Source: Clavelina lepadiformis (taxonomy: Eukaryota; Chordata; Ascidiacea; Aplousobranchia; Clavelinidae). From it: 64,000 bases of DNA. The stretch spans positions 22,012,501-22,076,500 of the forward strand of contig NC_135241.1 of NCBI RefSeq assembly GCF_947623445.1, written 5' to 3'. The notes under the pieces are model-generated. The model saw only the letters and a list, made by a program, of their open reading frames with translations, did no database searches and was not told the origin of the DNA. Positions within the stretch are counted from its first letter, which is position 1. Every line of letters starts with the position of its first letter. Shown here in pieces: positions 10,601 to 48,399 of the stretch. The position numbers and the translations under genes were made by a program.

Positions 10601-11741
10601 AACTAGCACCTTGCGTGGCGTAGTTTTTAAAACAAGTTATTTGATAAAAAGCACTAATCAAAATCACTGAGTAGAAAGTCAGGCACCTCCTAATATGCAT
10701 TTTTGTGTCCAGATCAATCCATCGCTGTCGTATCCCGACGGTGGCTTGTACCAGAGCCAAAACTTGCGTCATGTTAACGGCTTCCCAGCCGGCCACGAAA
10801 ACGTCAAGAAGTCTCAGTCGCTGTACGTGATTAATACGAAGGCGCTCAGCAATGGAGTGATAGATACGAAGCCTGTCCTGCAGCAGCCAAGGCTGGCAGA
10901 ATCTCAAACAAATGACGGTCATCAGAGGAATACGCAGGAACTAAGCAAGCAGACCGCTGTGGTGCAGTCACGAATTTCATCCGCAAATACCAACGACCGC
11001 ATTGGCTTACATCACGACGCCTCTGTTAAACCTTCCACTGCAACGACGTCATTGCACGAGGGTGCCCAGTCGAAGACAGTTGAAGCTTTAGAGAAAACGG
11101 ACACCGCCAGAAACACTGTAGCCACCGCCAATAATAGAAAAGCCACTGTACAAAGCAGCACCAAGTCTGGCGCGCCTCGTAAGGTTGTAATTCAAGCCTC
11201 GACCTCTGAACTCTTGCGCTGTTTAGGGGAATTTATTTGTCGGCGTTGTCACCGAGTGCCCGACTTTAACCCAAGCGAGGTTGGGGTCTGGTTGCGCGGT
11301 GTTGATCATTCCTTGCTTGTGCAAGGGTGGCAGGACATCACCTTTATCATGCCCTCAAGCGTCGTGTTTGTCTATTTGTTGTGTCGTGAGATGTTGCCAG
11401 AGAGCATCACATCGGCCTATGAAATTAAGTGCATTGTTCTGACGTGCTTGTACATGAGCTACTCGTACATGGGCAATGAAATATCCTATCCGCTTCGCCC
11501 GTTTTTGATTGAACCCGAGCGATTTGCTTTTTGGAGTCGCTGCTGCCGAATTATGGACAAACTATCGGGGAAAATGCTTCGAATCAACAACGACGCGCAG
11601 TTTTTCACGACCGTCTTCAGAGACTTAAAAGCCTACAGCACCGCCTCGACGGTACCCGCCCATACAAACTATATTCGTTCACATCCGCCGATAATAACAA
11701 ACAACGCGAGGGCAATCGCCGTGGGCGGAGCCAGCTGGTGA
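7640..11741 (+). CDS. CDK5R1: CDK5 activator 1 (p35), three coding exons
   Basis: This is a regulatory subunit that binds and activates the kinase CDK5, mainly in neurons. Exons are 7640-7708, 10485-10598 and 10713-11741, in phase, giving 403 aa. Exon 1 starts MGNN, a likely N-myristoylation signal like MGTVLS of vertebrate p35. Exon 2 encodes a basic patch (AAWKRLVESTRRRSSKG) matching the LPWKR...KKKNSKK region of p35. Exon 3 has a Ser/Thr/Gln-rich linker and then the cyclin-fold CDK5-binding domain from about residue 215, with near-identical blocks QASTSELLRCLGEF, CRRC, LVQGWQD, LTCLYMSYSYMGNEISYPL and FWSRC. Vertebrate p35 is about 307 aa, so the linker and C-terminal tail are longer here. 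The frame runs back to 10695, but 10695-10712 is the intron end (GTGTCCAG). Alternative: the p39 paralog, which an unduplicated invertebrate gene would also resemble. Confidence 0.95.
7709..10484 (+). other. Intron 1 of CDK5R1 (2.8 kb)
   Basis: The donor CAG|GTAAAA follows residue 23 and the acceptor is TTTTCCAG. Open frames inside (for example 7902-8189 +, 8067-8342 -, 9678-10067 -) have no recognised domain and no consistent splice partners. One TGACGTCA palindrome lies at 7903. Confidence 0.75.
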
Positions 11742-14187: not shown

Positions 14188-16188
14188 TTATACAAATCTT
14201 AGGTGATCGAAATTAAACAACATTATACAGCTGGCTTCAACTTGAAAACGGCAATGATTTTCAAAGCTCTTTGCAACGCGATCCGCGCTTTCATCATGAA
14301 ACATTTCGTCACTCATATCGTGAAGAAACTCTCGATTGTCATCCAAAAAAGTCAGCTTTACCTCGATTACGGTTCGACTTGTGTTTTTGCACGATACATC
14401 GAGGATGTCGTGGGGTAAGTTGCATCCATATTTTTGACCCAGTCTGGAAAAGCAAAAGGTTATCATAAAGTTAACTTTTTTGCATTAACCACAAAGTACC
14501 CTGTCACGTAATGACATTTTTCATAATTAAGCTATCTTTCCTACAAGGTGTTATCCAGAAACAACACTATTCACTGCGCAACTTTGTTGTTATTGGCGGG
14601 AAAATTTGTCATCTTTTTTGCAGGGATTATATTTTGTCGTTGTATTTACGTTTTCCAGCGAACGAAATACCAAAATGAATTAAACTTCTTTAAAGTCTGC
14701 ATGAGGTCAAGCCTGTATCATAAGCTATAGCTTATACAATCAATTTACAATATAGCATTACGGTAACATGTATTGACTTGAAGAATGTGCGAGTAGTAAT
14801 TAATCCATATCAGCTTATAATATTTTAAATTTTAAATTTTAAAAAGCCCTAGGCCCAGTTCATAACAAAATATTTTGAGGTTTTGGACTGGAACTTCTTT
14901 GAAATAAACCATCAGTAAGTTTAGGTTTCATGAATTTAGTTATTTGTTTTGCCATTAATTTCAAGCGATTCGAGAGCTTAAGAAATATGTCCGGAACTCT
15001 ACATATATATAGCCTAACAGTGAAGATAATTAACCTACGTGTTTTGAGTAAATAGTTATGTGTTAGTTTTGTGAAAGAGCGAAGAAAAGATGATGGATTG
15101 TACTTTCATCATTCATTAATGTTTTGCAAAAGTATCAATGTCGTATGCTTGACTACGTCAACTCACAAAGTTAAAAAACTTCGAAGCAAGCCACTGTGTG
15201 AGACGATGAGTGCGTGTTTATGGCAGTTGCTCCCTTCGCTGAACTTGCTTTCTCGACACATCTCCACGCAAAGAAACCTAGTGCATAAAATATAAATTTA
15301 GTTGGAAATTGACTTTTACAGATCGTTAAAACATTTCCCTGGCCAGCAATTAGTTGAAACGTAGCCTAAACATCTCAATACTTGAAAAAGCTGTCAATTC
15401 TGCGAGCCACCTCTTCCGGGGATTCCCCGTCATCTGGAGTGAAAAGCTTTTGATGGTGGTTACTTTGTTTTGCAAGCTTCTTTAAGTCTGCGATGGGTTT
15501 GCCTGTTAAAAGCCATAATGCGATTTTTTGGTCTTACTCCAAATTGTAGAAAAATATCATTCATGCGTTGTTGTAGCCACAATTAACCTTCCAATACGCC
15601 CATGTATCTTTCTCGAAGACGTTTATCTATGTAATAGTGAAGAATACCGTCTGTTTTCAAATCTAAAAATGCAGCATTATAGGAATAGGCTAATGATACA
15701 ATAATTTGAATCAATAAACTGGACATGCAACAGAGTAGTGAAAGTTTTAGATCTCTATTTTTGTCCTACTTCCGTTGCGCTCATTTTCTTTCAGGATAAT
15801 CTCACAGGTCTTTGTGGCCCTTTGGGTGTCGCTGCAGTAAACGTGCGTGAACTTTTGATCATTCAGATGTCTAAAAAAAGGAATTTTTTGCTTAAGTTGA
15901 GACCAAGTCTACAAGTTTAAGAAATTTCCAATTACATAGTACTTGAAATTCCTGGTTCGTTTTCTCATAACGAGCCGTTACAATTAAATCTATCTTGTAT
16001 AGTTCCATATATAGGCTTATACACCTTGCTATTGTCAAAGCCTGCACTTGTCCTTTCCAATTTAATGAAGCGTCCGATTTCTGACCTTGAATTTTCTGCA
16101 GCAGATTATTTATGGTCTGTCCGTGACGTATCAACGTCATAGTAAAACGCACGACCCCAGGCTCGTTATCCGAAGCATTCCAACACAT
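14188..16188 (-). CDS. TIGAR: TIGAR (fructose-2,6-bisphosphatase-like histidine phosphatase), six exons
   Basis: This histidine-phosphatase (PGAM-like) enzyme in vertebrates removes phosphate from fructose-2,6-bisphosphate and related sugar phosphates. Exons, in transcription order, are 16188-16025, 15870-15770, 15662-15588, 15502-15382, 15277-15167 and 14443-14188, in phase, giving 275 aa (human 270). The phosphohistidine motif LIRHGQT has His22. The middle matches human TIGAR (KFTHVYCSDTQRATKTCE, RLRERYMGVLEGK, LFTPDDGE). The second catalytic His181 lies in LIVSHSGLLRSFL. The last exon matches the TIGAR tail (CKNTSRTVIEVKLTF). At the position of human Glu102 this protein has Asp119 (GKPIADL instead of GKALSEL). 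The start gives an N-terminus about 11 residues longer than human; Met17 is a possible alternative. It is the most TIGAR-like member of the array and closest in length to the family. Confidence 0.93.
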
Positions 16189-18368
16189 TGTTTACGCTTT
16201 TAAAACGTAAAATACCAGCTATAGCTTATATATTTTTTACAGTGCAGTCGAAGTTTTTCTTTGACAAACGAAGATCTTTATCAAACGGCAGTAGGCTATA
16301 TTTCTAACGCTCGTGGTTCAGGCGTTTTGTTTTCCTTGCTTCTGACCTTTACATTATCCCTACCTATTCTGTACTTATCCATCCCGTTTTAGGTGGTACA
16401 CGATGTATTTATGGAAGCAACAGTAATAGTAACAAGCTCACACCATTTGCAAATCATTATAATTTATTTAAAGCACTCTGGGCATAGTAACACATGCTCG
16501 TCTATAAAGGGAATGGCTGTTCTCCAAAGCCGTAATACTAATAAATAACGCAAACTACTTGATGGTGTAGTTGGCCCGGAAGAGCGAATGACTCATCTTC
16601 CAAATACAATTTCTTTGCAATATAGCCTAAGCATAAGGACCCAACATTGAATGCTTTAAAACTGCTGCCTGATGAAGTTCACGGCTACAATGCTTGATAT
16701 CAAACATTGATGATTAACCGATTTCGGGTTAAACTTTGTCGCTCATCGTAAATATTTACGTTTCCACGTGTCTTTGCAAGTTAGTCTGTGGCCAGCAATA
16801 TTATATTTACGGGAAATTTCCAAATACGTTTCTTGCACTAAAACCCATCGTCCGGTGTTAGTTGGGTGTAAATTGTAGATGACTGGATGCAGGGCTAAAT
16901 AATAACGCAACGTCTTATTATCAAACAAAAATAAAATGATTCAACCAATGTTCCCTCTAAGCTGCGCGCGTGCGCAAATGCGCACTGCTCACACGGTCTC
17001 CGCGCACAGAAAATCTGTGTTGCGCACAAGAAAATAAGCCAACCTGAATTAAAAATAGAATAACCGCATAATAATGGCCACAGTGCGCACGTGGCACGTC
17101 TGATGTTGCTCACAGTGGTCCAAGGGACCGCTCAGGGAGTTAGTGTGTTTGCTCAGACTCGTGAAAAATTAGAGGGAAAATTGGATTCAACCTATTCCAG
17201 CTGTTGTTTGGTTGGTTGACAGCAATGATGATTGATACAGGAATCAGTTGTGTAAGGTTTCCGTTTTCAAGAATGCTGATGTTAACACTTGTAAATAATA
17301 AGCTTCGTCAGTAATATTTCTCGCATCAAGACCAATACATAGAAAAGGATTCACTGGGAATAATCAAATCACATTAAGCAATTATATTAATCGAACTCAT
17401 TATTAAGAAGTTTGGCACCATCTGGTGTTTACAGTCGCTTTTCCCGGGCTAAGCAGCTGTCTTCTTCTTGGCAAACAAGCTTTGAACCCGCTTCAACTCT
17501 AATAAAGGAAACAAACACACGACTACACGAGACTCGTAGTGCAACATTGTGTAAGATGTATAGGTCAGCAAACGCACGAAAATGAGTAATGTGTCCTACA
17601 AGCGTATAGCAGCGTAATGCTACAATGTATACGGAAGAGGGCAGTATGCGAGATAATGTCATACCAGCCATGCTGCGTTACTGCTTCAGTTGTAATATTT
17701 GGATTAACTCGAGCTCTTTTCTGTCGGTAATAATTCTAAATATCATGATTTAAAATATTTCAACTTTGCAGACATACGCTGTTATTTAGATTACAATATT
17801 TTTTGTTATACGTGACCACTGATCAGATATTTGATCCTTTCGCCGTTAGTCAGTATTTGACAGCGTAGCAAGATAATCGAGTTTTGGTGACTTAGGGACG
17901 AGAAACGAGATGCTCCCACTCAAAGTGCAAATTTCGTAATCGCATAGAGCTCTGATATGATACAAAAATTTTAAGGCGAATTTTCGACGTGTAATAAGAT
18001 ATCATATGCACAAATACTATAACAACATAAACACCAAAAATACGTGGAACGGAAATATTAACGTCATAGAAGGAAGAGCTAGTTATCATGCGCACATCCT
18101 CCATCGTGAAAGGAGCAAGTTTTCAAAGAAAACGTTAACACAATCTTGCATCAAGTCAACAACTGGTAATATTACAGAGGTACAGGGGTAACCCCCTCCC
18201 CGCATTTGATGTGTTGACTGTTATGATGTTTTTATTTGCATGTATGTAGGCTATAATAGATGTATTAATGCATCTGTTTCATCGCAAATTGCCAGGGTAT
18301 TTTTACACGTTTTTTGAAATAAAAATTACTTACATACAATAGTGAAGAATGTAGAGAACAAAAATGTT
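16189..18368. other. Intergenic region upstream of TIGAR
   Basis: This lies between the TIGAR start and the 3' end of the first paralog. It contains one clear small hAT-type element (16946-17183). Other open frames (17429-17671 -, 17892-18104 -) show no domain. The TIGAR promoter should lie at the low-coordinate end, but no core element is distinctive. Confidence 0.5.
16946..17183. mobile_element. Nonautonomous hAT-type element (238 bp)
   Basis: The element begins CAATGTTCCCTCTAAGCTGC and ends TTAGAGGGAAAATTG, giving inverted ends around TTCCCTCTAA. An exact 8-bp duplication GATTCAAC flanks it at 16938-16945 and 17184-17191. The left half is unusually GC-rich with alternating GCGC/TGCG runs, in contrast to the AT-rich surroundings. 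No coding capacity. The 8-bp duplication supports the hAT superfamily; the exact family needs a repeat-library search. Confidence 0.85.
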
Positions 18369-19907
18369 TTATTGATTTGGTTTTGTCTCCAGTTTGGTGC
18401 ACTTTATTGTCACTCCATCCAACCAGTTATTTGTAAGATAATCATCCAAACTGTCATCTCTTTCTTCAAATTGAGTTGAACAATCACCATTACAAGATGG
18501 TGGAAAGTTGACAACGAAACAAGATGTGGAGCAATTGTCGACAAAGTACGGCGGGTTTCGCTTAAACTGACATCCAAACTTTGCATTAAATCTGTAAGTT
18601 TATAAAAGTAAATGTAGTGGGGACATCATAGATAACATCATGCTACAGGGCTAAAATTGAAAAAAACTATCTATGTGTATTACTTACAATCTACAAGTTG
18701 AATCAATAAGGCCACGGTGAGCAACAACCAATACATTGGCACAGTAACCATCTGTGTTATGGTTTGAGCATTCTTCATAGATCTGTTTAAACAGAGCCCT
18801 GCAATACAAACAAATGATTAAACAGAAAGCCAGTAATACCACAGATTTAAAAAAATATCAATTAACTACTGTGAATTTTCGTTAATCACGTCTTTATGAC
18901 TAGTTAATGACATTTTAGTTAGACAAGTTATTGATTGATTGTTCATTTGATTAGATGTTGGACAGATGAACCGTCATATAGACTTGGTTTGAATGCAACC
19001 GATGTACGACTCCTTGTCCAGTACAGAAATTCGAAGTACCCTTCAAAGTATTTTCGTTTATATGATTGATTGGTCACCTGTAAAAGTCTTCAGCTCGTTT
19101 CCTCATCTGCATCTCGGACTCCCCTCTCTCCGGTGTATATTCTCTGGGAGACATGTGAGCCCTTTCTGCCGCTCGGTTTAGTTCATTATCGGGTTCACCT
19201 TAACAGTTGAAATAAATGAATGTTTTATAAAGATTTAAAAAGCGGATTAACCACTAAATTTACGCAAATACTTCGGAGGTTCATGGTATGGCACAGTTAT
19301 TTCTTGAAGTAACTGTCTGTTTGTCAAGTTTTAGGTGATTTATAGACATACACACCTTCTAGTACTCCAAACTTTCTTTCTCTTATCCTTTCGTCAGATT
19401 TTGTCTGTAACATCACATTTCCTGCGTATGCTAAAAATAAAACTAACTAAGCAAACAAAAAATGCACTGTGAAATATTCATATTATGATTCAATTTTGAG
19501 TGAGTTACTTACCTTGTGCGTATTGGTTGTGTGATTTAATTAATCTGCAGGTTTCAGAGGCACGACAAAGGTCACTTGAGAACCAGTGTGAAATGTTTTC
19601 TTCAGAAAAACATCTTGCATTGTAAAAAATTAAAAAGTTAAAATCACATATGATACAAGAAGTACTGCACGTTAAATATGCATATGTATATGCTGTATAT
19701 ATATTACTGCATATATATATGCTGTACGAGAACTGTCTTCTATGTCTCATAGAAGTGGAAGAATTTTATGACTTACTTTCCGACTGCGTTAGCTTGCATC
19801 AGTCCAGTCTCATTGAGTGGAATATCAACCTGGCCTTGTAACATCCTCTTAAGGTTGTAGTCAGTTTCTCCGTGACGTACCAGAGTTAAGTGGAACTTTT
19901 TACTCAT
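18369..19907 (-). CDS. TIGAR-like paralog A, six exons
   Basis: Histidine phosphatase of the TIGAR group. Exons are 19907-19777, 19613-19513, 19430-19356, 19198-19078, 18798-18688 and 18591-18369, giving 253 aa. Intron phases, and the sizes of exons 2-5 (101, 75, 121, 111), equal those of the TIGAR gene at 14188-16188. Motifs: [12 protein letters not shown] with His12, [23 protein letters not shown], and DNEL with the Glu at the human Glu102 position. The second active-site block reads [12 protein letters not shown]: His170 is kept, but the next residue is Arg, where neighbours have Gly. Exons 1-5 and most of exon 6 are nearly identical to paralog B, but the C-terminus (LETKPNQ) differs from B and C (LDHYQ). 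AATAAA overlaps the stop codon. Natural substrate and activity are unknown; reduced activity is possible. Confidence 0.9.
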
Positions 19908-22272
19908 ATTGCTGATGTTGAAAAATATGTGACCCTTTAGAATTAGAATTATCCAAAATCAGAAGCATTAATTATAAAAGATAAAACTTATTAATTCATA
20001 GGGATGACAACCATTGCAAAGTTCTTGTACTTGTTTGTTTCAAAGATTTCCAAACCTCATGTTTTGAGTTCAAAAATAGAACTTGCACAGAACTCTTTTA
20101 TTAGTCAATAACAAACTAACCAAGAATAAGCTTGTGTTGGATTAGACTAGTGGTTCAAACTGGGGGTAAAGAAGATATTTTTGGAATAAGGTAACAAAGC
20201 ACTTACATGCAGTAATAATTCTTTCAATTGTTCAGTAAACTGATAGATAATTAATAAATAAATATTACAGAAGAATATAGACCAATATTTACTATAATAT
20301 TTATGCAAGATACACTCCAACATTTGTTTTCTTCTACTAATTATCCTGCCAATGCGCAACCTTTGCTGTTGCAAAACTGTATATTTATTTTTCATTAATA
20401 TTATATAACTGAATAGGAATAGTAACCGAAGTGGGCAGGGGTAATAGCAAACTATCACACCATTGCCTGGGTAACAATACCAAAATATTCGACGATCAAG
20501 ATGATAAGATGCGACTTTGATGGTGGCTTTAATTTTAGTGTACATCTGCTGTCATAAAACAACCTTCACTTCCATTTACACACCAATGGTGGCAAAACAG
20601 ATAATATACAAAAATAAGGTTAATAATATTCCTGCTATATGCGTATGTTTATTAAATCAAGCTTACATATTACAAATTAACACATAGTGCAAGGAAAACA
20701 TATTTTAAGCTATTTTTATGAAACACTGAAATTGCTTTGACAGAAGCTTGTAGTTTAAGAATTCAGCTACAATACTTTGCTTTTACGTTTGACGTAAAAA
20801 AACTTCGCCAACACAATGACGTATTACAATGTACAAAATGCATCTTGTTAATATCAATATTTCTTACAATAATCAGGTTGAATAAACTCATCATGGAAAA
20901 CGGCCAATATCTTTATTTAATTTTTTTGTTACTGTTAGATCTACAGCGGTGGTGCTCAGGTAAATTTTTAAGTGACTCCTTTAATGAAGTTTGAAACCTT
21001 GCGGCAACTTAAATAAAGGAAAATGTTACTCCAAAACAAAAAATTAATTAAAGTAAATTTAGTTGCAGTTTCACCTTATATTGCCACTTTATAATAGATG
21101 CATTGTGACATAAAACAATGGCGGAAATTAATTTCATTAAAGCTTGCCACTAGTTTGCATTTTTTTCCTGTAAGAAAATAGCGTATAAAAAGACATTTGC
21201 TGCGCAACATTTGCGAACCACTGATCTACAGCGATTGTCATACATCTGTGATAACAACCATCTGAAATACAATCATCTCATCATAGTGATACTTAGCTCA
21301 CGCATTTTTAAAAATAATTATTTTTAATGCTGTACCAAAAGTTTCACAATTCTTTGCATTTTTTAGACTACATTTTGCTCCTTAGATAATAATTAATTCA
21401 CTATTCATTTACTGATGTTTCTACTTGTTTCTGACATTATGAAAGCTTTGATGATCTTTACCCCCATTTACACAACATCACAAGTAAAATTATTACAACA
21501 GCAAAAACAGCACGAAAATGTGGTAAAGGAAACATCGTCATAATAAAAACCAACGTCCTGTTACAATTTGCTCACCACTTGTCATGAAATATTATTATGT
21601 AACACAGATACTAAACACAGACTAATTAATTATAAGCATGCAGGTAAATGTTTGGTACCGTAACATAATGAAGATAGTTGTCAATTTTTTTTCTGGGAAC
21701 CTCTTAATGCAAAAACTCCAATTACCGTATTTCTTAGATTATTATCATACAGTGCAAAAAGCATTGATATTGTACACAAGCCAACCCCAAACCTATATTT
21801 TACGTAAGTAAGCCATACAGCCTGTTTCAAGATCGCGGAGGAAGGTTGGTAGAATCAATTGCAGGTGAGGGGGGACTAAATGTAGGTTTTCAAAAGGTTT
21901 TAAGCGAAAGATGTTGTAAGCTGCATGAAATAGACCTAAAGTAAATAAGCGAAGAAGTACAGAGGTCAACATGCAAATTGTATTAAAGATTGCATATTTA
22001 TGATAATTATAAAAAGTGTTAAATCACTAGACAGAAATTCTAAAATAATCATAATTAAAACTTATTTCACCTATTGCATTACAAATAATCATGTTACACA
22101 TATACCGACTAATTATACTAACAAATAAAGTAGAATACAATGAGTATACTCTCAAGTTACTTTTTCTTGAATACAGTATGGTTTTGTAATTGGGGTAATG
22201 CATTCATTTTTAAATTCAAATTTTACGAAAGAGAATTGGTCTAGAGTAAATGGTGTAGATAACAAATATATT
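19908..22272. repeat. Intergenic part of ~3.9-kb tandem duplicate unit, copy 1
   Basis: This upstream flank of paralog A matches 23787-26163 almost base for base over its whole length, with small indels. Together with paralogs A and B these segments form two adjacent direct repeats offset by about 3.9 kb. A 132-codon - frame at 20147-20545 is open in both copies, but the copies are too similar for this to show selection, and no domain is seen. The segment contains a small hAT-type element (20947-21223), also present in the second copy. Confidence 0.9.
20947..21223. mobile_element. Small hAT-type element in duplicate unit, copy 1 (277 bp)
   Basis: The element is flanked by the exact 8-bp duplication ATCTACAG at 20939-20946 and 21224-21231. 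The left end is CGGTGGTGCTCAGG, and the complement of the right end is CAGTGGTTCGCAAATG, a weakly paired hAT-type terminal repeat. The same insertion with the same duplication sits at 24847-25140, so the insertion predates the tandem duplication. No coding capacity. Confidence 0.72.
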
Positions 22273-23786
22273 TTATTGATAATGATCCAGCTTGGTGCAC
22301 TTTATTGTCACTCCATCCAACCAGTTATTTGTAAAATAATCATCCAAACTGTCATCTCTTTCTTCAAATTGAGTTGAACAATCACCATTACAAGATGGTG
22401 GAAAGTTGACAACGAAACAAGATGTGGAGCAATTGCCAACAAAGTACGGCGGGTTTCGCTTAAACTGACATCCAAATTTTGCATTAAATCTGTAATTTTA
22501 TGAAAGTATATGTAGTGGGGACATCATAGGTCACATCATGCCACAGAGCTAAAATTGAAAAAATTATCTATGTGTATTACTTACAATCTACAAGTTGAAT
22601 CAATAAGGCCACCGTGAGCAACAACCAATACATTGGCACAGTAACCATCTGTGTCATGGTTTGAGCATTCTCTATAAACTTGTCTGAACAAATCCCTGCA
22701 GTACAAACAAATGATTAAACAAAAAGCCAGTAATATCACAGATTATTATAAGTATCAATTAACTACTGTGAATTTTCGTTAATCTTGTCTTTATGACTAG
22801 TTAATGACATTTTAGTTAGACAAGTTATTGATTGATTGTTCATTTGATTGGATGTTGGACAGATGAACCGTCATATATACTTGGTTTGAATGCAACCGAT
22901 GTACGACTCCTTGTCCAGTACAGAAATTCGAAGTACCCTTCAAAGTATTTTCGTTTATATGATTGATTGGTCACCTGTAAAAGTCTTCAGCTCGTTTCCT
23001 CATCTGCATCTCGGACTCCCCTCTCTCCGGTGTATATTCTCTGGGAGACATATGAGCCCTTTCTGCCGCTTGGTTTAATTCATTATCGGGTTCACCTTAA
23101 CAGTTGAAATAAATGAATGTTTTATAAAGATTTAAAAAAGCGGATTAACCACTAAATTTACGCAAATACTTCGGAGGTTCATGGTATAGCACAGTTATTT
23201 CTTGAAGTAACTGTCTGTTTGTCATGTTTTTGGTGATTTATAGACATACACACCTTCTAGTACTCCAAACTTTTTTTCTCTTATCCTTTCGTCAGATTTT
23301 GTCTGTAACATCACATTTCCTGCGGATGCTAAAAATAAAACTAACTAAGCAAACAAAAAATGCACTGTGAAATATTCATATTATGATTCAACTTTGAGTG
23401 AGTTACTTACCTTGTGCGTATTGGTTGTGTGATTTAATTAATCTGCAGGTTTCAGAGGCACGACAAAGGTCACTTGAGAACCAGTGTGAAATGTTTTCTT
23501 CAGAAAAACATCTTGCATTGTAAAAAATTAAAAAGTTAAAATCACATATGATACAAGAAGTACTGCACGTTAAGTATGCATATTACTGCATATATATATG
23601 CTGTACGAGAACTGTCTTCTATGTCTCGTAGAAGTGGAAGAATTTTATGACTTACTTTCCGACTGCGTTAGCTTGCATAAGTCCAGTCTCATTGAGTGGA
23701 ACATCAACCTGGCCTTGTAACATCCTCTTAAGGTTGTAGTCAGTTTCTCCATGACGTACCAGAGTTAAGTGGAACTTTTTACTCAT
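22273..23786 (-). CDS. TIGAR-like paralog B, six exons
   Basis: Histidine phosphatase of the TIGAR group. Exons are 23786-23656, 23511-23411, 23328-23254, 23095-22975, 22695-22585 and 22489-22273, giving 251 aa, in phase. It has [12 protein letters not shown] (His12), DNEL at the human Glu102 position, and an intact [12 protein letters not shown] second site. Exons 1-4 are almost identical to paralog A. Exon 5 has its own changes ([15 protein letters not shown] against [15 protein letters not shown] in A and C). The C-terminus LDHYQ and the sequence beyond the stop match paralog C instead. The gene therefore looks like a junction product of A-type and C-type copies. AATAAA overlaps the stop codon. 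All predicted catalytic residues are present, so it is probably active; its substrate is not known. Confidence 0.91.
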
Positions 23787-26163
23787 ATTGCTGATGTTGA
23801 AAAATATGTGACCCTTCTGTTTCAATGTATGGGCAGTAAATTAGAATTATCCAAAATCAGAAGCATTAATTATAGAAGATAAAATTTATTAATTTATGGG
23901 GAATGACAATCATTGCAAAGTTGTTGTACTTGTTTGTTTCAATGATTTGCAAACCTCATGTTTTGAGTTCAAAAATAGAATTTGCACAGAACTCTTGTAA
24001 TAGTCAATAACAAACTAACCGAGAATAAGCTTGTGTTGGATTAGACTAGTGGTTCAAACTGGGGGTAACGAAGATGTTTTTGGAATAAGGTGACAAAGCA
24101 CTTACATGCAGTAATAATTCTTTCAATTGTTCAGTAAACTGATAGATAATTAATAAATAAATATTACAGAAGAATATAGACCAATATTTACTATAATATT
24201 TATGCAAGTTACACTCCAACATTTGTTTTCTTCTACTAATTATCCTGCCAATGCGCAACCTTTGCTGTTGCAAAACTGTATATTTATTTTTCATTAATAT
24301 TATATAACTGAATAGGAATAGTAACCGAAGGGGGTAGGGGTAATAGCAAACTATCACACCATTGCCTGGGTAACAATACCAAAAAATTCGACGATCAAGA
24401 TGATAAGATGCGACTTTGATGGTGGCTTTAATTTTAGTGTACATCTGCTGTCATAAAACAACCTTCACTTCCATTTACACACGAATGGTGGCAAAACAGA
24501 TAATATACAAAAATAAGGTTAATAATATTCCTGCTATATGCGTATGTTTACTAAATCAAGCTTACATATTACAAATTAACACATAGTGCAAGGAAAACAC
24601 ATTTTAAGCTATTTTTATGAAACACTGAAATTGCTTAGACAGAAGCTTGTAGTTTAACAACTACAATAACAAAGCTTTGCTTTTACGTTTGACGTAAAAA
24701 AACTTCGCCAACACAATGACGTATAACAATGTACAAAATGCGTCTTGTTAATACCAATATTTCTTACAATAATCAGCTTGAATAAACTCATCATGGAAAA
24801 CCACCAATATCTTTATTTAATTTTTTTGTTACTGTTAGATCTACAGCGGTGGTGCTCAGGTAAATTTTTAAGTGACTCCTTTAATAACGTTTGAAACCTT
24901 GCGGTGTCCTAAATAAAGGAAAATGTTACTCCAAAACAAAAAATGAATTAAAAAACAATACTGTTTTGAAACAAATTTAGTTGCAGTTTCACCTCATATT
25001 GCCACTTTATAATAGATGCATTGTAACATAAAACAATGGCGGAAATTAATTTCACTAAAGCTTGCCGCTAGTTTGCATTTTTTCCTGTAAGAAAATAACG
25101 TATAAAGAGACATTTGCTGCGCAACATTTGGGAACCACTGATCTACAGCGATTGTCATACATCTGTGATAACAACAATCTGCAATACAATCATCTCATTA
25201 TAGTGAAACTTAGCTCACGCATTTTTAAAAATAATCATTTTTAATGCTGTACCAAAAGTTTCACAATTCTTTGAATTTTTTAAACTACATTTTGCTCCTT
25301 AGATAATTAATTAATTCACTATTCATTTACTGATGTTTCTACTTGTTTCTGGCATTATGAAAGCTTTGCTGACCTTTACCCAAATTTAAACAACATAACA
25401 AGCAAAATTATTACAACAAAAACAGCACGAAAATGTGGTAAAGGAAACATTGTCATAATAGATACCAACGTCCTGTTACAATTTGCTCACCACTTGTCAT
25501 GAAATATTATTATGTAACACAGATACTAAACACAGACTGATTAATTATAAGCATGCAGGTAAATATTTGGTACCGTAACATAATGAAAACAGTTGTCAAT
25601 TTTGTTTTCTGGGAACCTCTTAATGCAAAAACTCGTATAAATATAAATATATAAATACAATTACCGTATTTCTTAGATTATTATCATACAGTGCAAAAAG
25701 CATTGATATCGTACACAAGGCAACAGCAAACCTATATTTTACGTAATTAAGCCATACAGCCTGTTTCAAGAACGCGGAGGAACGTTGGTTAGTTTTAAGC
25801 AGAAGATGTTGTAAGCTGCATGAAATAGACCTAAAGTAAATAAGCGAAGATTTACAGAGGTCAACATGCAAATTGTGTTAAAGATTGCATATTTATGATA
25901 ATTATAAAAAGTGTTAAATCACTAGACAGAAATTCTAAAATATTCTTAATTAAAACTTATTCCATCCATTGCATTACAAATAAACATGTTACACATATAC
26001 CGACTAATTATTAACAAATAAAGTAGAATGCAATGAGTATACTCTCAAGTTACTTTTTCCTGAATACAGTATGGTTTTGTAATTGGGGTAACGCATTCAT
26101 TTTTAAATAAATTTTACGACAGAGAATTGGCCTAGAGTAAATGGTGTAGATGACAAATATATT
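23787..26163. repeat. Intergenic part of ~3.9-kb tandem duplicate unit, copy 2
   Basis: This is the second copy of the segment at 19908-22272, in direct orientation and nearly identical by eye. Small differences include a shorter AT-microsatellite-like stretch near 23575, an added short stretch near 24950-24975, and an altered run near 25770-25800. The homology continues through the stop codon of paralog C, marking the downstream duplication joint within the last exons of B and C. Confidence 0.9.
24847..25140. mobile_element. Small hAT-type element in duplicate unit, copy 2 (294 bp)
   Basis: This is the duplicate of the element at 20947-21223, with the same flanking duplication ATCTACAG at 24839-24846 and 25141-25148. 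Its right end reads GGGAACCACTG, closer to a standard hAT terminus than the first copy. It is a little longer because of an internal insertion. Confidence 0.72.
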
Positions 26164-28350
26164 TTATTGATAATGATCCAGTTTGGTGCACTTTATTGTC
26201 ACTCCATCCAACCAGTTATTTGTAAGATAATCATCCAAACTGTCATCTCTTTCTTCAAATTGAGTTGAACAATCACCATTACAAGATGGTGGAAAGTTGA
26301 CAATGAAAGAAGATGTAGAGCAATTGTCAACAAAGTACGGCGGATTTCGCTTAAATTGACATCCAAACTTTGCATTAAATCTGTAATTTTATGAAAGTAT
26401 ATGTAGTGGGGACATCATAGGTCACATCATGCTACAGAGCTAAAATTGAAAAAAACTATCTATGTGTATTACGTACAATCTACAAGTTGAATCAATAAGG
26501 CCACCGTGAGCAACAACCAATACATTGGCACAGTAACCATCTGTGTTATGGTTTGAGCATTCTTCATAGATCTGTTTAAACAGAGCCCTGCAGTGTATGA
26601 AATATTTGAAAAACATCTTGAGTTAATTAGAAATTTCATATTAGCAGAAATATTTACAGCAAGAATTTTTGGCAATTATTGAGTATTTTGATTTATATGA
26701 TTGATTGGTCACCTGTAAAATTCCTCAGCTCGTTTCCTCAGCTGCATCTCGGACTCCCCTCCCTCTGCTGTGTATTCTCTGGGTCCCAAACGAGCTTTCT
26801 TTGCAGCTTGGTATAGTTCACTGCTCAGTTTTCCTAACATGAATATGCCGTGAATGGAGGTTATAGAACAGGGGTGGCCAGACCTGCTTCATGCTCGAGC
26901 CGCATATAACATATTCCAGTTTTAAAAGAGCCACAACACAAACACAATAAAAAACACGAATTTATTCACTTACAAAGAAGTGTAGCTATTGATTAGCATT
27001 AGTGCTGCATGGTGATACTATGAGTCTCCAACTGGGCTTCACCAACTCTTTTTGCAATTATTATTATAACCGTAACCAAGACTTAAAATTAGGTCAACCA
27101 TGACGTACAGCTTCAATCTGACAGTTTACTTAACTACAGTGTACAAGTTAGCACACTTCTGTACAATAATGTACTTTTTGGAGTGTAATTTGATTATTGC
27201 TAACAATGAGTCCATTGTTAATACGTGTGATAGAACGCATTGTTTCATAATCTGATCAAACAACTCGTCTAGACCGGGAAAATTGCATGTCTAATTCAAC
27301 AATGCTAATTCATTAAAGAGCCGCAATCAAAGGCTCAAAAAGCCACAGTTTGGCCACCCCTGTTATAGAAAATACTAAAAAGGCAGTTCAACTGCTGCTT
27401 ATTTGTACTGGCACTGCATTACCAAATGTGATGTATTGTATTTAAAGAACTGAAATCAGTCCATGCAGATGCTCTGACAGTTGTGGAGCAGACATGTGTC
27501 GATGCTATGCCAAGATACTTTTAACATATAATGTTCCTGCTTGTGCGAGGACCAAAACAGGGTTTCGCTTCCTTTGTTCTACTTGAAGTTAAATCTTAGA
27601 CATACATAGACTTTTATACGGTCGGCAAACACAAACCTTCTAGAACTCCAAAGCTTCTTTCCCTTATTCGACTGTCAGATTTTATTTGCATTGTGGAAGC
27701 TTCTTCATTTGCTGGAAATAAGACACAAAAAGCAATTAATTAAATGACACAGGTCATAAAAGTCTGATGTTTAAACATATATATTGTGCTTGTGGCAAAT
27801 TATATAAGTACAGTGAATTCTGGCAGCATGTTACTTACATTGTCCGTGTTTATTTTGTGATTTGATTAATTTACAAGTTTCAATGGCTCGCTTTAGGTCA
27901 CTTGAATACCAATGTGAAATCTTTTCTTCAGCGAGGTATCTTAAATGGTAAAGAATTATTATTATTAGTATATTACCAAGTGCACAAAAGTGTTTTGATA
28001 AAATGTCTAATTGTAATTTCCAATCATGCGAAGGTTGTAAGATGTTGATATATTTTTACCATCGTAATTTGCTTGCAAACACGAAATTAATCATATACCG
28101 GTATAGACCACGTTGTGTGTGGCAGCAAAAATTGAAGTCATCTGTCTCCCTTCAATGAAATTTTTTAAACGAGAACTGCCTTCTATGTCTCGTAGAAGTG
28201 GAAGAATTTTATGACTTACTTTCCGACTGTGTTAGCTTGCATCAGTCCAGTCTCATTGAGTGGAATATCAACCTGGCCTTGTAACATCCTCTTAAGGTTG
28301 TAGTCAGTTTCTCCATGACGTACCAGAGTTAAGTGGAACTTTTTACTCAT
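26164..28350 (-). CDS. TIGAR-like paralog C, six exons, mosaic
   Basis: Histidine phosphatase of the TIGAR group. Exons are 28350-28220, 27939-27839, 27711-27637, 26833-26713, 26587-26477 and 26380-26164, giving 251 aa, in phase. It has RHGETDYN (His12), KLSSEL with the conserved Glu, and [12 protein letters not shown]. Exon 1 with the adjoining intron start, and exons 5-6, are nearly identical to A/B. Exons 2, 3 and the 5' part of exon 4 are clearly diverged (KYLAEEKISHWYSSDLKR, SNEEASTMQIKSDSRIRE) and closer to paralog D. Intron 3 carries a 494-bp hAT-type element. AATAAA overlaps the stop codon. The catalytic residues appear intact. Confidence 0.9.
26869..27362. mobile_element. Nonautonomous hAT-type element in intron of paralog C (494 bp)
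   Basis: The ends are CAGGGGTGGCCAGACCTG and, at the right, the complement of CAGGGGTGGCCAAACTGTGG. An exact 8-bp duplication TTATAGAA flanks them at 26861-26868 and 27363-27370. Subterminal GAGCCGCA motifs in opposite orientations near both ends are common in this hAT subgroup. The interior is AT-rich and non-coding. It lies in intron 3, leaves the splice sites intact, and is absent from the other paralogs, so it is a copy-specific insertion. Confidence 0.93.
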
Positions 28351-28877
28351 ATTGTGTATCTTGCTATTTTCTTTAAATGTCCTAATAATTATGACTGCTG
28401 TGTTTTAATATACATGCAGTAAACGAAATAATATGTTGAAAGCTAATAGGTCATCTGTGGAAAATAAATACAAAAATTAAGATTAATTTATACAACAAAT
28501 GATTGACGAATGCCGCAAGGTATGTACTGGAATAGTTCAATAATTTGAAAAAATCATATTTTGAATGAAAAATTAGTACAATGTATTAAATAAATGAGGT
28601 GTTACATAAATGAGGTTGTATCTAATAAACAGCAATTTGAATAATGGATTTTATGATTTTATACACCGTCCACACAACACAACTGTGCTGATTTAACATA
28701 GACAATGTGAAGGCAACTTTATGTGGCAAAACAAATTTGCTAAAATAGAGAAATGTAATGATGCAAATATGTCTAGATAAGCATTAAAATTATTTCAATG
28801 TAGAATAGCACATCAAATCTATAAAGAATTGTGATGCTAAAAGATATTACACTACACATCATCCCATAAACAACAGG
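28351..28877. other. Short intergenic region between paralogs C and D
   Basis: This AT-rich spacer of about 530 bp must hold the promoter of paralog C and the 3' end of paralog D. It is unrelated to the 2.4-kb spacers upstream of A and B: similarity to those stops a few bases upstream of the start codon of C. No distinct element seen. Confidence 0.5.
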
Positions 28878-31800
28878 TCAATGCTCGTAACCCAATTTAG
28901 TGCATTTTATTGTAACTCCGTCCAGCCAGTTATGTGTAAAAGATTCATCCGAGTCTTCGCTACCAACTTCAAATTGAATTGAACTTCCATCGTCACAAGA
29001 TGGCGGCAAGTTAACAATGAAACATGAAGTGGAGCAATTGTGAAAATAATATGGCAAATTTTCTTTAAACTGACATCCAAACTTTGAGTTAAATCTGTAA
29101 TTTTAGATATGAAACAACTTTAGATTCACCTTCGTTACGATGGTTTACAAGTATGAATATGCACAATACAGGAACTTACAAGAACACGTGATAAGTGTGA
29201 AGTTTAGAAACGTCTTTATACGAATACTTTGGTATTTCGAAGTATTCTTCGTTATTTAAATTTGAATACAGAATATTAAGTCAATATTTCAACTATGACA
29301 ACCATGCAACCCTCTATAAATCAAGCGCTGATGACACGAAAAACTATTCCAACGCATGAACCTATTGTTTGCCTGTCACAAAAGTAAGTTTCACCTCTGC
29401 AATATAAACTAATGTCATGTTGCAAACAAGTGAAGTGTTTTTGTTAACTTACGACCATTTCACATCAAGAATCAAGTTATGTTAGGGCTGAAAATTAGCA
29501 GTTTGCTTTAAACACATGAAGGACTTTGAATTTAAATTTGGACAATTACAAGGTAAATAAAAATCATTTCGAATTAACAAAAATTCACATTTAAATTGAA
29601 TTGATATTCTGAAATGAACATCCATAGCCAAGTTATAAAATTTAAATTCCTCACAGTAAGCAAGTTGAATTGATAATTCCGCCATGTGAAACCACGAATA
29701 CGTTTGCACAGAATTCACTGTCACTGTTCGAGCACTCATCATAGATTTGTGTGAATAAAATTCTGCAACGAACAACACAAAGCCAAAGCCTGGTTGACGT
29801 ATTTTAAAAATCATAGACCGCAAAAAGATACATATTGGTATTTGATTCGGACATTTTGAAACCGACATTTTGTAACGAAACAAATTGGTCCGGATTAATA
29901 AGGTCTGATTTTGTTTGATTAGAAAATATTACCCATAGAATTCTTCGGCACGCTTTCTAATCTGCATCTCTGTTTCCCCTCCTTCAGCCGTAAACTCTCT
30001 CAGACTCAAGCAAGCATGTTTTGCTGCTTCATGTAATTCACTGCTTGGCTTTCCTGCGTAGTTGAACCATGCAAAGTTTTATTGTACACAAAATACAAAC
30101 ATTTATGAAACAGTTACAATGTTGTACAAACAACTACATTGTTATCATCAAAAATAAAAAGCTTAAACAAAGTGTGGCAAAGATACTGAAAAGTTTTTAA
30201 AATGGTTATGTATCACAGTTTCATGTCAGTTCAACCCCCATCACCTCAACCCTGGTCAATTCACAGCCAGTTGAAATAAAGTTGTAGGCCCAATTTAATC
30301 TTCCAAGCATTCAACAAAGTAAAATTTTGGTCCACCGTGAATCCGATTTAAGGCTCATAAACTACAGTTGTTTGTATAAAGGTTTTGTTTCATCTTGAGA
30401 TATTCTATTCCGAAATCTCTTAACAATGTAAAATAGAAGAATATGATAACTTAATATAAATAATAATTAATATAAGTCGTAACGTGGTCTCCTTTTCCGC
30501 TTGGCAACTTACATTTTGACCTCTCCTTTCTTAAAGTGAGGGGCAAGTTCAAAAACAAGTTGACCTTAAATCAAAGACTAGTTGCCAGTATATTTACTAA
30601 TGAAAATTTTTTTAATAATATATAATGGTTAAGCAGCTAAATATTGCCAAAATTGCATCTCAAAATTGGCCTCTTATTATGATGGAGAGGGTGGTCATTA
30701 TAACGTCACAATGGAGAAACAATATGCCAGATGACTGAGGCTTGTATTAAGTATGGTGATAGTGGTGGGCTAGCAAAGGGGTTTTGGATGGAATACGTTG
30801 CCTTTGGTAGGTGGTTAGTAGCAAGTTATGCATATTTTCAGCATAGGAATGTCACAAATGACAGTACATAAACTGTTAAAGCAATATTGTTTTTACCACA
30901 GTTACCGGTACCAAACTATTGTGACTAGGTTAGAGACAACAGCCAAGACTGTACTGACTGTAGGTTAACACCTACATTCAGCAGTACAAATACACCAACA
31001 GTAAGTTAGTTTAGGCTTATACAAAATGCTCCTGTTATACACTTGAGTATGCTATAATTATACCTATTACTATTTACTTGTTGAACACCTGAAACATTCC
31101 ATTCATATTTGATCCACATATCTGAGTTATCCCTATTTTTTCTATTATTGTGAAATAAAAAAACGCCACCTTCATCATAATTAAGCAAAGAATATGCGTT
31201 TTTGCCATTTATTTATGACAATAACTGCTAAACCACTACATATCAGTACAAATCTTTTCTCCAGTATATTTACTGACAACTACTTTTTAATTTAGGCCAC
31301 TTTTTGGACTTGTCTCTCACTTTAAGCATTACTGAGTCTCCACTGAGCGCTTAAAGATGTAGTCTTGCATAAACCATTTTCAAAACAAGTTGAAACGAAT
31401 TACATTTTCAACATTAGCGAGTTTGAAAACTGCAATTAAATTGAATTCAGGACTGGTGTTGAGTTAGTTGAGGTTGAGTCGTTTGTAGATGAATTAATTG
31501 ACCACCCTTTCATACATACCTTCTAGAACTCCAAAACTTCTTTCTCTTATTCTATTGTCAAATTTTGTTTGACATTTGACGTCTTCAGGTTCAGAATTTA
31601 CTAAAAATAAAACAAAGACAAGTGGATGAACAATACAGCCACAAACACAACACAACAGCCAAAAGAGAGCTAATGCTTTATGAATTAGAATTTAAACTGT
31701 AACAAAATAAAGCAGTCTGCTTACTTACATTGTGCAAATTTGTTTTGTGATTTAATTAATCTGCAGGTTTCAGAGGCACGACGAAGGTCACTTGTGAACC

Positions 31801-32040
31801 AGTGTGAAAACTTTTCTTGAGAGAGGCATCTGGTATTAAAAAAGATTAGGTCAATAAGATTAATTTTTAAGCGCACAACATAAAGATTGCAACAAATTTT
31901 ACAACTCACTTGCCAAGTTTGATGGCTTGCATTTGGCCATTCTCATTTAGGGGCACATCAGTATGCCCTTGCACAATTCTTTGAAAGTTGTAGTTAGTTT
32001 CCCTGTGACGTACAACTGTTAATTGGAACTTTTTACTCAT
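28878..32040 (-). CDS. TIGAR-like paralog D, six exons, altered RHG motif
   Basis: Histidine phosphatase of the TIGAR group. Exons are 32040-31910, 31829-31729, 31600-31520, 30053-29933, 29762-29655 and 29094-28878, giving 252 aa, in phase. Exon 3 is two codons longer and exon 5 one codon shorter than in the other paralogs. The first active-site block reads VVRHRETNYN: His12 is kept, but the invariant Gly of RHG is Arg. SSEL (Glu102 position) and VVSHGGIINST are intact. It is the most diverged paralog overall, yet part of exon 2 ([12 protein letters not shown]) is nearly identical to A/B. Intron 3 is long (1.5 kb). The fully open, regularly spliced frame argues against a pseudogene; the Arg may lower or change activity. 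Confidence 0.88.
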
Positions 32041-38300: not shown

Positions 38301-41300
38301 TGAACCAACCACTGTCTAAACTTTACAATTTCATCATTCTTACACTAAGTTGAATACTTTCAATCTGCAGGAAATTGCGGAAGGAAAAGAAGTTGACGAG
38401 GAAGAAGAACTTAAACTTCCAACTCCTGCACAAAGTGCAACAAGTTCACGACCGGCAAGTTCGCGTCCAACCAGTTCGCGACTCAGTTCTGCTAAGGAAA
38501 GATTTCCGCAGGTGTGCCGCCTTTTCTACCAGTTGCAATTCCTATTTGTAATATCTTCACATTCTTGGCGATTGTGAATGAGCTGAACCATGCAGATTTA
38601 TTCTAAAGAATTAATTAATTAAATTTCAGGCAACTGAAATGCTGGAAAGAATCGGAGCGCTCAGTGAGAGACATGAAGCTTTGGATGGAAGAGTCGTTGT
38701 ACTTGAGGTGATTGTCTTTAGTCTCTTTAGAAAACTCAGAGAAGTTAAAATAAAACCCTAGTTGAAATTTTCATATAAAATATGAAACTGAAAAACCTAA
38801 GCCCAACCAAGCTCATTCAAAACCACTAGTGAATGTACAACTTTTTACTACAGTAGTTGAATCAGAACTTATAGTGTACTAGACTAACCAGTGGCCATGT
38901 AAATGACTGTTTTTCAGGAAACAATGCCAACCAAAGCCGATAAATCTGAACTGGATGAGCTACGCAATCAACGTGAGTGAAGTGAAAGTATTAAGATTTT
39001 TATGTTCCTATTTTTTTTGAAATATTCACTTTATGCTTTGCGCAACAGAGGCACCTTCTATCCCAGAAGACCTACTCGAACAACTTGCTAAGCTCAAGGA
39101 AGCCATAAGTTTCCTGGAGAAAGAAAAGGATCGGGTATGATGCGAATGTTGGCTTTTCACTTATAGAAAATTTATCAAATTTGCAACAAAAACATTCTAA
39201 AATGAATTTAAAAAACAGTTGCAAATACACAGACCGTGCTTTTATCATTTTTCAGTTGAAAGACCTGTTGCAGTTACAGCAGGATAGCATAGACAACATA
39301 CTCTCAATGAGGCCCGCGTCAGATGGTACTGAGGGCGGGGAGAGCTCAGGCTATGAGTCGGCTGGAGGTTTGGCAAATGGAGTGACTGCTCTCGATTTGA
39401 GAAAACTTGAACTAGCTTGTCAAAGACTAGGCCAGAAGATGGGCAGTCATGTGAAGTATGAGCTAGTGTAGATTTTAATAGGAAACCAACACTGTGATAC
39501 AACAGCCAGTCATAACAGTGAAAGATATAGGAAAGAATATTTTATGTATAGTAGAAATCTATTAACACCAGATTGTGAACGGTTAAAGGATTGAACAACC
39601 AAGCAGCAGAAGCGTGTTTTAGTCTCATAGCTGTGCACATATTGACAGAATATATTCTAAACCTAGGCAGCTGCAGCAGACCGATGATGATTTGAGTAAA
39701 AAGAACCAGGAAATATACGAAGCTGTGAAAGACATCCTCAGCCAGTTTAAGGACCTTAAGAAACAGTTGGAGCTAGTTAAGGCAACTCAGAAAGCTCTGA
39801 GTCAACAGATGATAAACCAAGCAAAAACAGCATCTTCCCGACCTGCTCCTACTCACGTGACACCAGCTCCCACTCAAACAACTTCTACATCTACGTCCAC
39901 TCACGCACTTCCCACTTCCGAACATTCTTCTTCTAAATCCTCTCTTGCATCTCCAACTCCAAGTAGCACATCTCCCACTTCTTCTAATATGACTCCCTCT
40001 CCCACTCATAGAGATCATACTTCCACTCATAGAGATCACACTTCGGCTCATTCAGAGCGTGTTGCTCCTCTTCCGACCCCTTTTCCGGAAAGAATGGCTT
40101 TGTCCAGGAAAAGAAGCAATATGAAACAAAAGGTCGAGGATAATTTTAGATAAAAGAGCAGACACAAATAATCTTTCCTCCTTTGAATCGATATTCCGCT
40201 CTAGGTTTTATTTTAAAAACAGGATTCCTTAAAATTTTTAAGATGTTTTTTACACCAATACTTGTGTTGGGCAGGAATCGGACACAATCGCCAATATGCA
40301 AAACGCCTTGCTTAACCTTCAAGCCGAGCTTGAAAAGCTTTACAGACTCGTCAATGCTGCAATGGAAGAACACGACGCCAAACAAAAACACATCGACGTG
40401 AGAGAATTAAGTATATACTGCGTTTACTTAAAGTGGAATACTGGCTGGCTTAATCTGGGCGTTTGGTGGTTATGTCAGAGCACAATTCATTTATGTACTT
40501 AGCTACATTGGGTCATCGAATATATTTTCTTTTGTAGTCGCTTTATGGGTATGCGGAAAGACTTGAAGAAAAGAAGGCGGATAAGGAAAATGTCAAGATG
40601 GAGATTGATGTGGTGGGCCAACTTTTCTTAAACTTTTCTGTTGAAATATTCGATTCAGTTGGCGCTAATCGCCGTCACGTTTTAAATAACAATTGCTACT
40701 GTTAATTTTGCCTGCGCAAACACTTAATCTGCCTATTATGCTTCGTTCAAAGTACCGTTACCTTTTAATATCGCCTGTTACTCTCATGATCAGAAAGCGG
40801 ATAAACGTGCCTTGGCTACCAAAGTCAATCGAACAGACTTCGACTCAACGACGAACGAAATCACAAAGAACTTGGACGAAATGCTAGAAAAGATCTTGGG
40901 GCAGGTTTGTGTCGTCACAGTTACGTTGTCCTTGTTTTAATCGTCCGTAGTTCGTTTAAGAATGCTTTTAATCGTTCGCTTTGTCACCGTGGTATACTTC
41001 CGACATACCGTAAGATTCGCAGCCTTCAGGTCGCTAGCCATAAGCTCGCTGCAATATTTGCTTTGCGGAGACTCAATTCGATCTTTCCCTTTGTTAACAC
41101 GTTTTGGATTAGATCGGACAGGCATGTATACGTATGAAGATGGGCAGTAATGTTTGCTTGGTAAATCTCGAAACCGGATCACCATCTCGATATCCGAAAA
41201 TGATAAGAAGTTTTCATTCAGTGAACGGGCTTGGGTTGACTTTGCGTTTGCAATCTTTGACAATTTGCGTTATCTTGAACCAGCCTATAAATTTCTTTGA

Positions 41301-47884: not shown

Positions 47885-48399
47885 GGGAGCACGACATATG
47901 GCCGCGGGAAAGTGGCCGCGAACAAACTCACCGGGGTCAACTGAACGTGACGTAAATTGACCGCAGACAAACTGACTGTGACATAAACTGGCCGGCGATC
48001 AAATTAACCGTCGATAAATTGGCCGGCGATCAAATTAACCGGCGACAAATTGGCCGTCAAAAGGTCAAAATTTTAAACTCGGTAGTATATGATATGTAAA
48101 GTAAATATTTGTTTGTAACTATTTCCTTTGTTTTTAACAAAATTGTTTTTTATTTCAATACACATTGAAACGTTTATTGAAATAAACAGAAGTGACTAGA
48201 TAGTGAATTAGAATTTTGACCTTTTGACGGCCAATTTGTCGTCGGTTAATTTGATCGCCGGCCAATTTATCGACGGTTAATTTGATCGCCGGCCAGTTTA
48301 TGTCACAGTCAGTTTGTCTGCGGTCAATTTACGTCACGTTCAGTTGACCCCGGTGAGTTTGTTCGCGGCCACTTTCCCGCGGCCATATGTCGTGGAACC
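47885..48399. mobile_element. Foldback element with ~190-bp arms and 9-bp duplication
   Basis: The left arm (about 47885-48078) and right arm (about 48212-48399) are long inverted repeats around a short AT-rich middle. The termini pair as CACGACATATGGCCGCGG. A 9-bp duplication TTTCCCAAT flanks the element at 47876-47884 and 48400-48408. A 9-bp target duplication with long arms fits a Mutator-type (MULE) foldback MITE, but the superfamily is inference. Each arm is built of roughly 15-16-bp units of the type AAATTGACCGNCGANA. There is no coding capacity. The arms remain almost perfectly complementary, which suggests a recent insertion. Confidence 0.85.

Follow-up and report, generated by a model that had tools for sequence, protein, structure and literature searches.

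The genome of the aplousobranch ascidian Clavelina lepadiformis raises the question of how five neighbouring genes for one type of histidine phosphatase came to stand together, and whether all of them still encode the same enzyme. The genes lie at 14188-32040 of a stretch of 64,000 nucleotides (here called the window; positions 22,012,501 to 22,076,500 of contig NC_135241.1, RefSeq assembly GCF_947623445.1) on chromosome C2. They very probably form a tandem array of TIGAR-family histidine phosphatase genes produced by local duplication in the ascidian. Tandem expansion of a metabolic gene is common in animal genomes, and this array is an ordinary case of it in which one of the copies is of interest. 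New here are the mosaic copies and an arginine that one of the genes, E, encodes in place of the glycine after the catalytic histidine.

Structure of the gene array

Rebuilt from the sequence, all five genes are complete, consist of six exons and lie on the minus strand. Each has an ATG and one terminal stop, and the encoded proteins comprise 251-275 aa. The genes are named A to E in the order of rising coordinates. Gene A (16188-14188, 275 aa) has its exons at 16188-16025, 15870-15770, 15662-15588, 15502-15382, 15277-15167 and 14443-14188. Gene B (19907-18369, 253 aa) is composed of exons 19907-19777, 19613-19513, 19430-19356, 19198-19078, 18798-18688 and 18591-18369, and gene C (23786-22273, 251 aa) of exons 23786-23656, 23511-23411, 23328-23254, 23095-22975, 22695-22585 and 22489-22273. 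The chimeric gene D (28350-26164, 251 aa) includes exons 28350-28220, 27939-27839, 27711-27637, 26833-26713, 26587-26477 and 26380-26164. The exons of gene E (32040-28878, 252 aa) are located at 32040-31910, 31829-31729, 31600-31520, 30053-29933, 29762-29655 and 29094-28878.

The introns are GT-AG throughout, with phases 2,1,1,2,2 in all five genes. Exons 2-5 measure 101/75/121/111 nt in A-D and 101/81/121/108 nt in E, the gene with the highest coordinates, where the changes of +6 and -3 nt are each in frame. A preliminary description of this DNA had proposed five complete six-exon genes in one orientation with common phases and central exon sizes, and this structure was confirmed, the small size changes being confined to E. 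Splice sites were picked with guidance from the exon sizes of that description. The earliest ATG in frame was taken as the start of gene A, and residue 17 is another Met; the second half of its last exon has no clear TIGAR counterpart.

In B, C and D (gene ends 18369, 22273 and 26164), the stop codon TAA lies within an AATAAA hexamer. This overlap suggests that the 3' untranslated ends of these genes may be very short. An operon reading of the array was set aside, because the intergenic gaps of 0.5 to 2.4 kb are long by comparison with those in ascidian operons.

The window is free of N, and beyond 14.1-32.1 kb tblastn found only noise in it (best E 0.30). Protein searches of the whole genome (209,060,895 bases in 95 contigs) with C and A as queries yielded no TIGAR exon outside the cluster. 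Exon matches fell inside it in 23 of 24 cases for query C and in 11 of 11 for query A, the remaining one being a weak PGAM match (E 0.023). Further members of the superfamily were detected by a Pfam search of the genome: a PGAM-like locus on chromosome C8, two PGAM5-like loci on C6 and C9, and one more, unassigned locus on C5. The PGAM and PGAM5 loci of this genome (L007, L008 and L013) share the superfamily with the array genes and differ from them in being stop-to-stop frames of 259-289 aa, apparently intronless and located on other chromosomes. The PGAM5-like frame on C6 (L008) has 271 aa and reads VRHGQY at the catalytic motif; that on C9 (L013) has 289 aa and reads IRHGQY.

Assignment to the TIGAR family and placement of gene A

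All five proteins match PF00300 (His_Phos_1) at 106-132 bits (A 108.9, B 123.3, C 122.1, D 132.4, E 106.1; cut-off 21.7), which characterizes them as branch-1 histidine phosphatases. In the PDB, query C found human TIGAR (3dcy) as the best match (E 2.9e-26, over the N-terminal part), followed by zebrafish TIGAR; query A gave E 8.8e-25 for the human and 2.8e-23 for the zebrafish protein. A profile built from the five rows scored three TIGAR sequences at 140.9, 131.0 and 126.1 bits and the next family at 67.7. The top three PDB sequences were TIGAR for each query tried (C, A and the profile). PhoE-type broad phosphatases and CobC (1h2e, 6nru; TIGR03162) have the branch-1 domain and the catalytic residues in common with the array proteins; at 67.6 and 45.3 bits with the same profile, they reach about half of TIGAR's score or less. 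Neither A nor D exceeded the curated cut-off of any model listed in an NCBIfam scan.

A 36-row tree was calculated from the five window proteins, human and zebrafish TIGAR, PGAM, a PGAM5-like protein and 27 of 80 relatives from other genomes. In this tree, A-E and the two vertebrate sequences form a clade (support 99/95), outside of which L007 and L008 fall. Together with the Pfam and PDB matches, this bears out the earlier assignment of the array to TIGAR: judged by sequence, A-E belong to this family. An AlphaFold2 model of C, built from 58 sequences including 56 prokaryotic relatives, reached a mean predicted local distance difference test score (pLDDT) of 84.5 and a predicted template modelling score of 0.85.

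Human TIGAR has six exons according to the extracts of PMC6131595 and PMC9682291, as do all five ascidian genes. It is a single gene in human, as opposed to five tandem genes in Clavelina. B-D have its RHGET motif, and R61, E89 and H198 occur in A-E. The loop ahead of His198 is much shorter in A-E, and B-E differ from the human protein in having an acidic, Cys-containing insert of about 20 residues that separates the last two strands. Identity to human TIGAR amounts to 35.1% for A (188 columns) and to 36.6-40.6% for B-E (201-202 columns). Identity to zebrafish TIGAR (3e9c/3e9d) is 34-37% (A 37.4%, B-E 34.4-36.5%), so that A is marginally closer to it.

B-E make up a clear clade in the sequence comparison (100/97 in the 36-row tree). 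The position of A relative to it is less certain. The 36-row tree places A with the vertebrate pair, apart from B-E (96/66), while a tree of 23 rows, 16 of them prokaryotes chosen by hand, joins A to B-E (60/10). Approximately unbiased (AU) tests on the 36-row tree do not reject a single clade of A-E (p 0.33), nor a grouping of B-E and the vertebrates to the exclusion of A (p 0.31). A phylogeny of the kind proposed in the preliminary description thus recovered the B-E clade and, with discordant trees and non-significant AU tests, permits a sister relation of A either to vertebrate TIGAR or to B-E. Likewise, the statement that the gene with the lowest coordinates retains the sequence pattern of TIGAR while the others form a separate clade holds in its second half. 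The first half is not supported in that form: the identity of A to human TIGAR does not exceed that of the others, A is only marginally closer to the zebrafish protein, and it shows the departures E13Q, E102D and G199S (human numbering).

These data bear on the strongest alternative to local duplication, namely that B-E represent an ancient second TIGAR lineage, which predates the tunicate-vertebrate split and was lost in vertebrates, and that A is the true TIGAR orthologue. Such a history is conceivable, though rather unlikely. It would agree with the grouping of A with vertebrate TIGAR, with the identity of only 30-33% between A and B-E, and with the slight affinity of A to the zebrafish protein. 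However, the value of 66 in the Shimodaira-Hasegawa-like approximate likelihood ratio test (SH-aLRT) is weak, uniting A-E costs 0.66 log units, and the smaller tree unites them. A also adjoins B-E and shares their phases and exon sizes, which fits local duplication.

The preliminary description had further held that vertebrates have one TIGAR gene. This is probably too broad, as the zebrafish literature uses the name tigarb. We assume that this name implies a zebrafish paralogue tigara; the latter name itself was not met among the matches listed.

Active-site residues and gene E

In the extract of PMC6131595, H11, E102 and H198 are described as essential in human TIGAR; the extract of PMC9682291 lists H11, H183, R10, R61 and E89 for the zebrafish pocket. 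Alignment to the human protein showed R10, H11, N17, Q23, R61, E89 and H198 in all five array proteins, and these therefore include the zebrafish pocket residues R10, H11, R61 and E89 along with the second histidine. Position 102 is Glu in B-E, Asp in A and His in zebrafish TIGAR, so E102 is not strictly conserved in the family.

Human and zebrafish TIGAR have a glycine after each of the two catalytic histidines; of the array proteins, C and D alone retain the pair. G12 is kept in four of the five proteins, E having Arg; G199 is kept in three, with Ser in A and Arg in B. The motifs differing from human TIGAR are RHRET in E, AHRG in B, and RHGQT and SHSG in A. In E, codon 13 (AGG, 32002..32004, minus strand) encodes the Arg at the position of Gly12, adjoining His11. 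In B, codon 171 (CGT, 18714..18716, minus strand) encodes the Arg at the position of Gly199, adjoining His198.

To rate these changes, the best 80 of 538 confirmed prokaryotic loci and one viral contig were aligned; one locus (L100) had no usable frame, which left 79 prokaryotic rows and the viral row. Position 12 is Gly in all 79. Seventy of these rows match the pattern used for the search, which admitted G and R alone at this position; the lack of other residues in them follows from the pattern itself, and the lack of R does not. The nine rows outside the pattern have Gly as well. Position 199 is Gly in 68 of the 79 rows, Ser in two and Arg in one. Both positions are Gly in the viral row. 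The vertebrate comparison for G12 comprises two sequences (human and zebrafish), too few to rate G12 as a family mark. Since position 12 is Gly in every prokaryotic row, Arg in E is unusual; changes at 199 occur elsewhere, and G199 is no strict mark of the family.

Constraint was estimated by the Nei-Gojobori method (own script) as the ratio of nonsynonymous to synonymous divergence (dN/dS). In the comparisons of E with B, C and D this ratio amounts to 0.19-0.24, and in those among B, C and D to 0.40-0.46; A is saturated at synonymous sites against the other copies. In a simulation of neutral drift of the D frame, 0.15% of 2000 runs stayed free of stops at 0.2 substitutions per site and none at 0.35 or 0.5. 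The low dN/dS and the simulation together argue that E has not been a neutral relic across its whole history, which leaves room for a recent loss of function.

The possibility that E, and perhaps B, are pseudogenes or dead enzymes under neutral drift is thus improbable. The Arg in E at a position that is invariant in the prokaryotic rows, and the Arg of B at Gly199, would be in keeping with it. On the other hand, E has an open frame, GT-AG sites and a dN/dS of about 0.2 against B-D, and frames seldom survived in the simulation. B has diverged too little for its constraint to be judged in this respect.

By its sequence, E thus appears to be a constrained, intact copy with a changed catalytic motif, and it is the most interesting single item of the array. 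A-D are probably active as enzymes. The activity of E is probably reduced or altered, because Arg replaces Gly12. Tentatively, E could be a paralogue of TIGAR kept by selection, its active site (RHR for RHG) rebuilt or silenced, which serves next to its active neighbours as a binding or regulatory partner or acts on a new substrate; the array would then be a natural series of TIGAR variants that exchange has reshuffled repeatedly.

Exchange between the copies

Genes B and C each belong to a larger tandem unit, which includes the 5' flank. The B unit extends over 18350..22250 (minus strand), its end at 22250 being the cut of the query, and the C unit over 22254..26141 (minus strand), with the query cut at 26150 and 22250. 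The units are 92.5% identical over 3966 alignment columns. The similarity extends, with an unchanged spacing of about 3.9 kb, to the 3' part of D, and so the repeated unit is taken to be a gene plus its 5' flank. The synonymous divergence (dS) between B and C is 0.074, and their introns are 92-99% identical.

Gene D agrees with B and C in two separate tracts. The first (28169..28354, minus strand) covers exon 1 and the start of intron 1 and is 97.8% identical to both, with flanks that do not align. The second (26150..26594, minus strand) includes exon 5, intron 5, exon 6 and the 3' flank and is 94-95% identical to them. In exons 2-4, D has diverged from B and C much more than in exons 1, 5 and 6: the B-D synonymous divergence in exons 1-6 is 0.04, 0.79, 0.77, 0.54, 0.00 and 0.11, respectively. 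The matching tracts stop sharply in introns 1 and 4. Gene E has one tract of this kind (31721..31848, minus strand), consisting of exon 2 and its edges, with 86% identity to B and C. Against B and C, exon 2 of E has a dS of 0.17, while the other exons have 0.7 or more and exon 4 is saturated.

The longest run of agreement was examined by permutation (20,000 shuffles) in the six pairs among B-E, without correction for six tests. The p values are 0.0001 for B-D and 0.00025 for C-D, with the longest runs in exon 6, and 0.00005 for both B-E and C-E, with the longest runs in exon 2. Unequal exchange or gene conversion has made mosaics of the copies. The 3' tract of D may have arisen by an unequal crossover in intron 4, and the exon 1 tract by gene conversion. 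Exchange among the copies means that whole-gene trees of B-E mix histories.

Intron 3 of D contains a 494-bp inverted-repeat element (26869..27362, plus strand) with the inverted ends CAGGGGTGGCCA and with TTATAGAA on both sides. At least 42 matches to it were found genome-wide with 91-100% identity, this copy included (40 of 461 candidates scored). We take it to be hAT-like from the 8-bp flanking repeat.

Ascidian heterozygosity can reach a few percent, as between B and C, so two haplotypes of one gene, most likely B and C, might have been joined by the assembler. This is the least probable explanation, since the likeness extends into D at the same spacing in a window without gaps of N, A, D and E are too diverged for alleles, and the assembly was made, according to the extract of PMC10884593, from 117-fold HiFi reads and Hi-C with purge_dups and manual curation and has 0.6% duplicated BUSCOs.

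Proposed history and function

Local duplication with later exchange would have proceeded as follows. An early duplication would have produced A and the ancestor of B-E, and later rounds E, D and, last, B and C by means of the unit of about 3.9 kb. Afterwards, unequal crossing-over or gene conversion may have kept parts of the copies alike: exons 1, 5 and 6 of D are of the B/C type whereas its exons 2-4 are its own, and exon 2 of E is B/C-like.

Each protein is expected to fold as a branch-1 histidine phosphatase. The phosphate would be passed via the histidine equivalent to His11, with Glu89 as the acid and His198 as the second histidine. Small phosphate esters might be hydrolysed, for example 2,3-bisphosphoglycerate or, to a weak degree, fructose-2,6-bisphosphate; the extract of PMC6131595 suggests that the latter is perhaps not the main substrate of TIGAR even in mammals. 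By homology, we infer a possible role in glycolysis and redox, and the copies are presumably expressed.

Several points weigh against this account. The array is seen in one ascidian genome, and the gene models with all their junctions are predictions from the sequence. The position of A differs between the trees. The run test is not significant in two of the six pairs (B-C 0.10, D-E 0.28); as the longest B-D and C-D runs lie in exon 6, the case for the exon 1 tract of D is one of identity. The B-C dN/dS of 0.46 is based on few changes, and hence constraint is less clear for the youngest copies. In the model of C, confidence is poor from around residue 211 onwards (10-residue means of 45-59, and below 50 at 213-226), where B-E depart from TIGAR.

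Surroundings of the array

At lower window coordinates than the array, an intronless open frame on the plus strand (10671-11741) encodes a p35-like CDK5 activator (PF03261, 280.7 bits). On the other side, a plus-strand gene at 40278-42221 encodes a DUF4795 domain, exons joined by eye matching PF16043 with 228.3 bits; it probably covers about 35.3-45.3 kb, likewise by eye, and is presumably QRICH2-like. A PH-domain exon (61714-62079, minus strand; PF00169, 28.9 bits) is followed by an open frame of 669 aa (58589-60598, minus strand) with no Pfam match at E 0.01. Short tandem repeats of a 31-bp unit occur at two nearby places, 47983-48056 and 48228-48301; read as reverse complement, the first is similar to the second.

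Neighbours of vertebrate TIGAR include CCND2, FGF6, RAD51AP1 and others. None was recognised among 17 other open reading frames of the window scanned with Pfam, out of 33 listed with at least 110 aa, a comparison short of a full synteny test.

Significance of the array

No description of a TIGAR expansion in tunicates turned up in the open-licence literature, as judged from search results in PMC. The true substrate and role of mammalian TIGAR are debated, and the array offers five natural variants of the enzyme in one chordate, some of them altered beside the catalytic histidines. With these variants, the residues that determine activity and substrate can be compared directly. The array further illustrates, in compact form, how gene conversion acts and chimeras form among enzyme genes in tandem.

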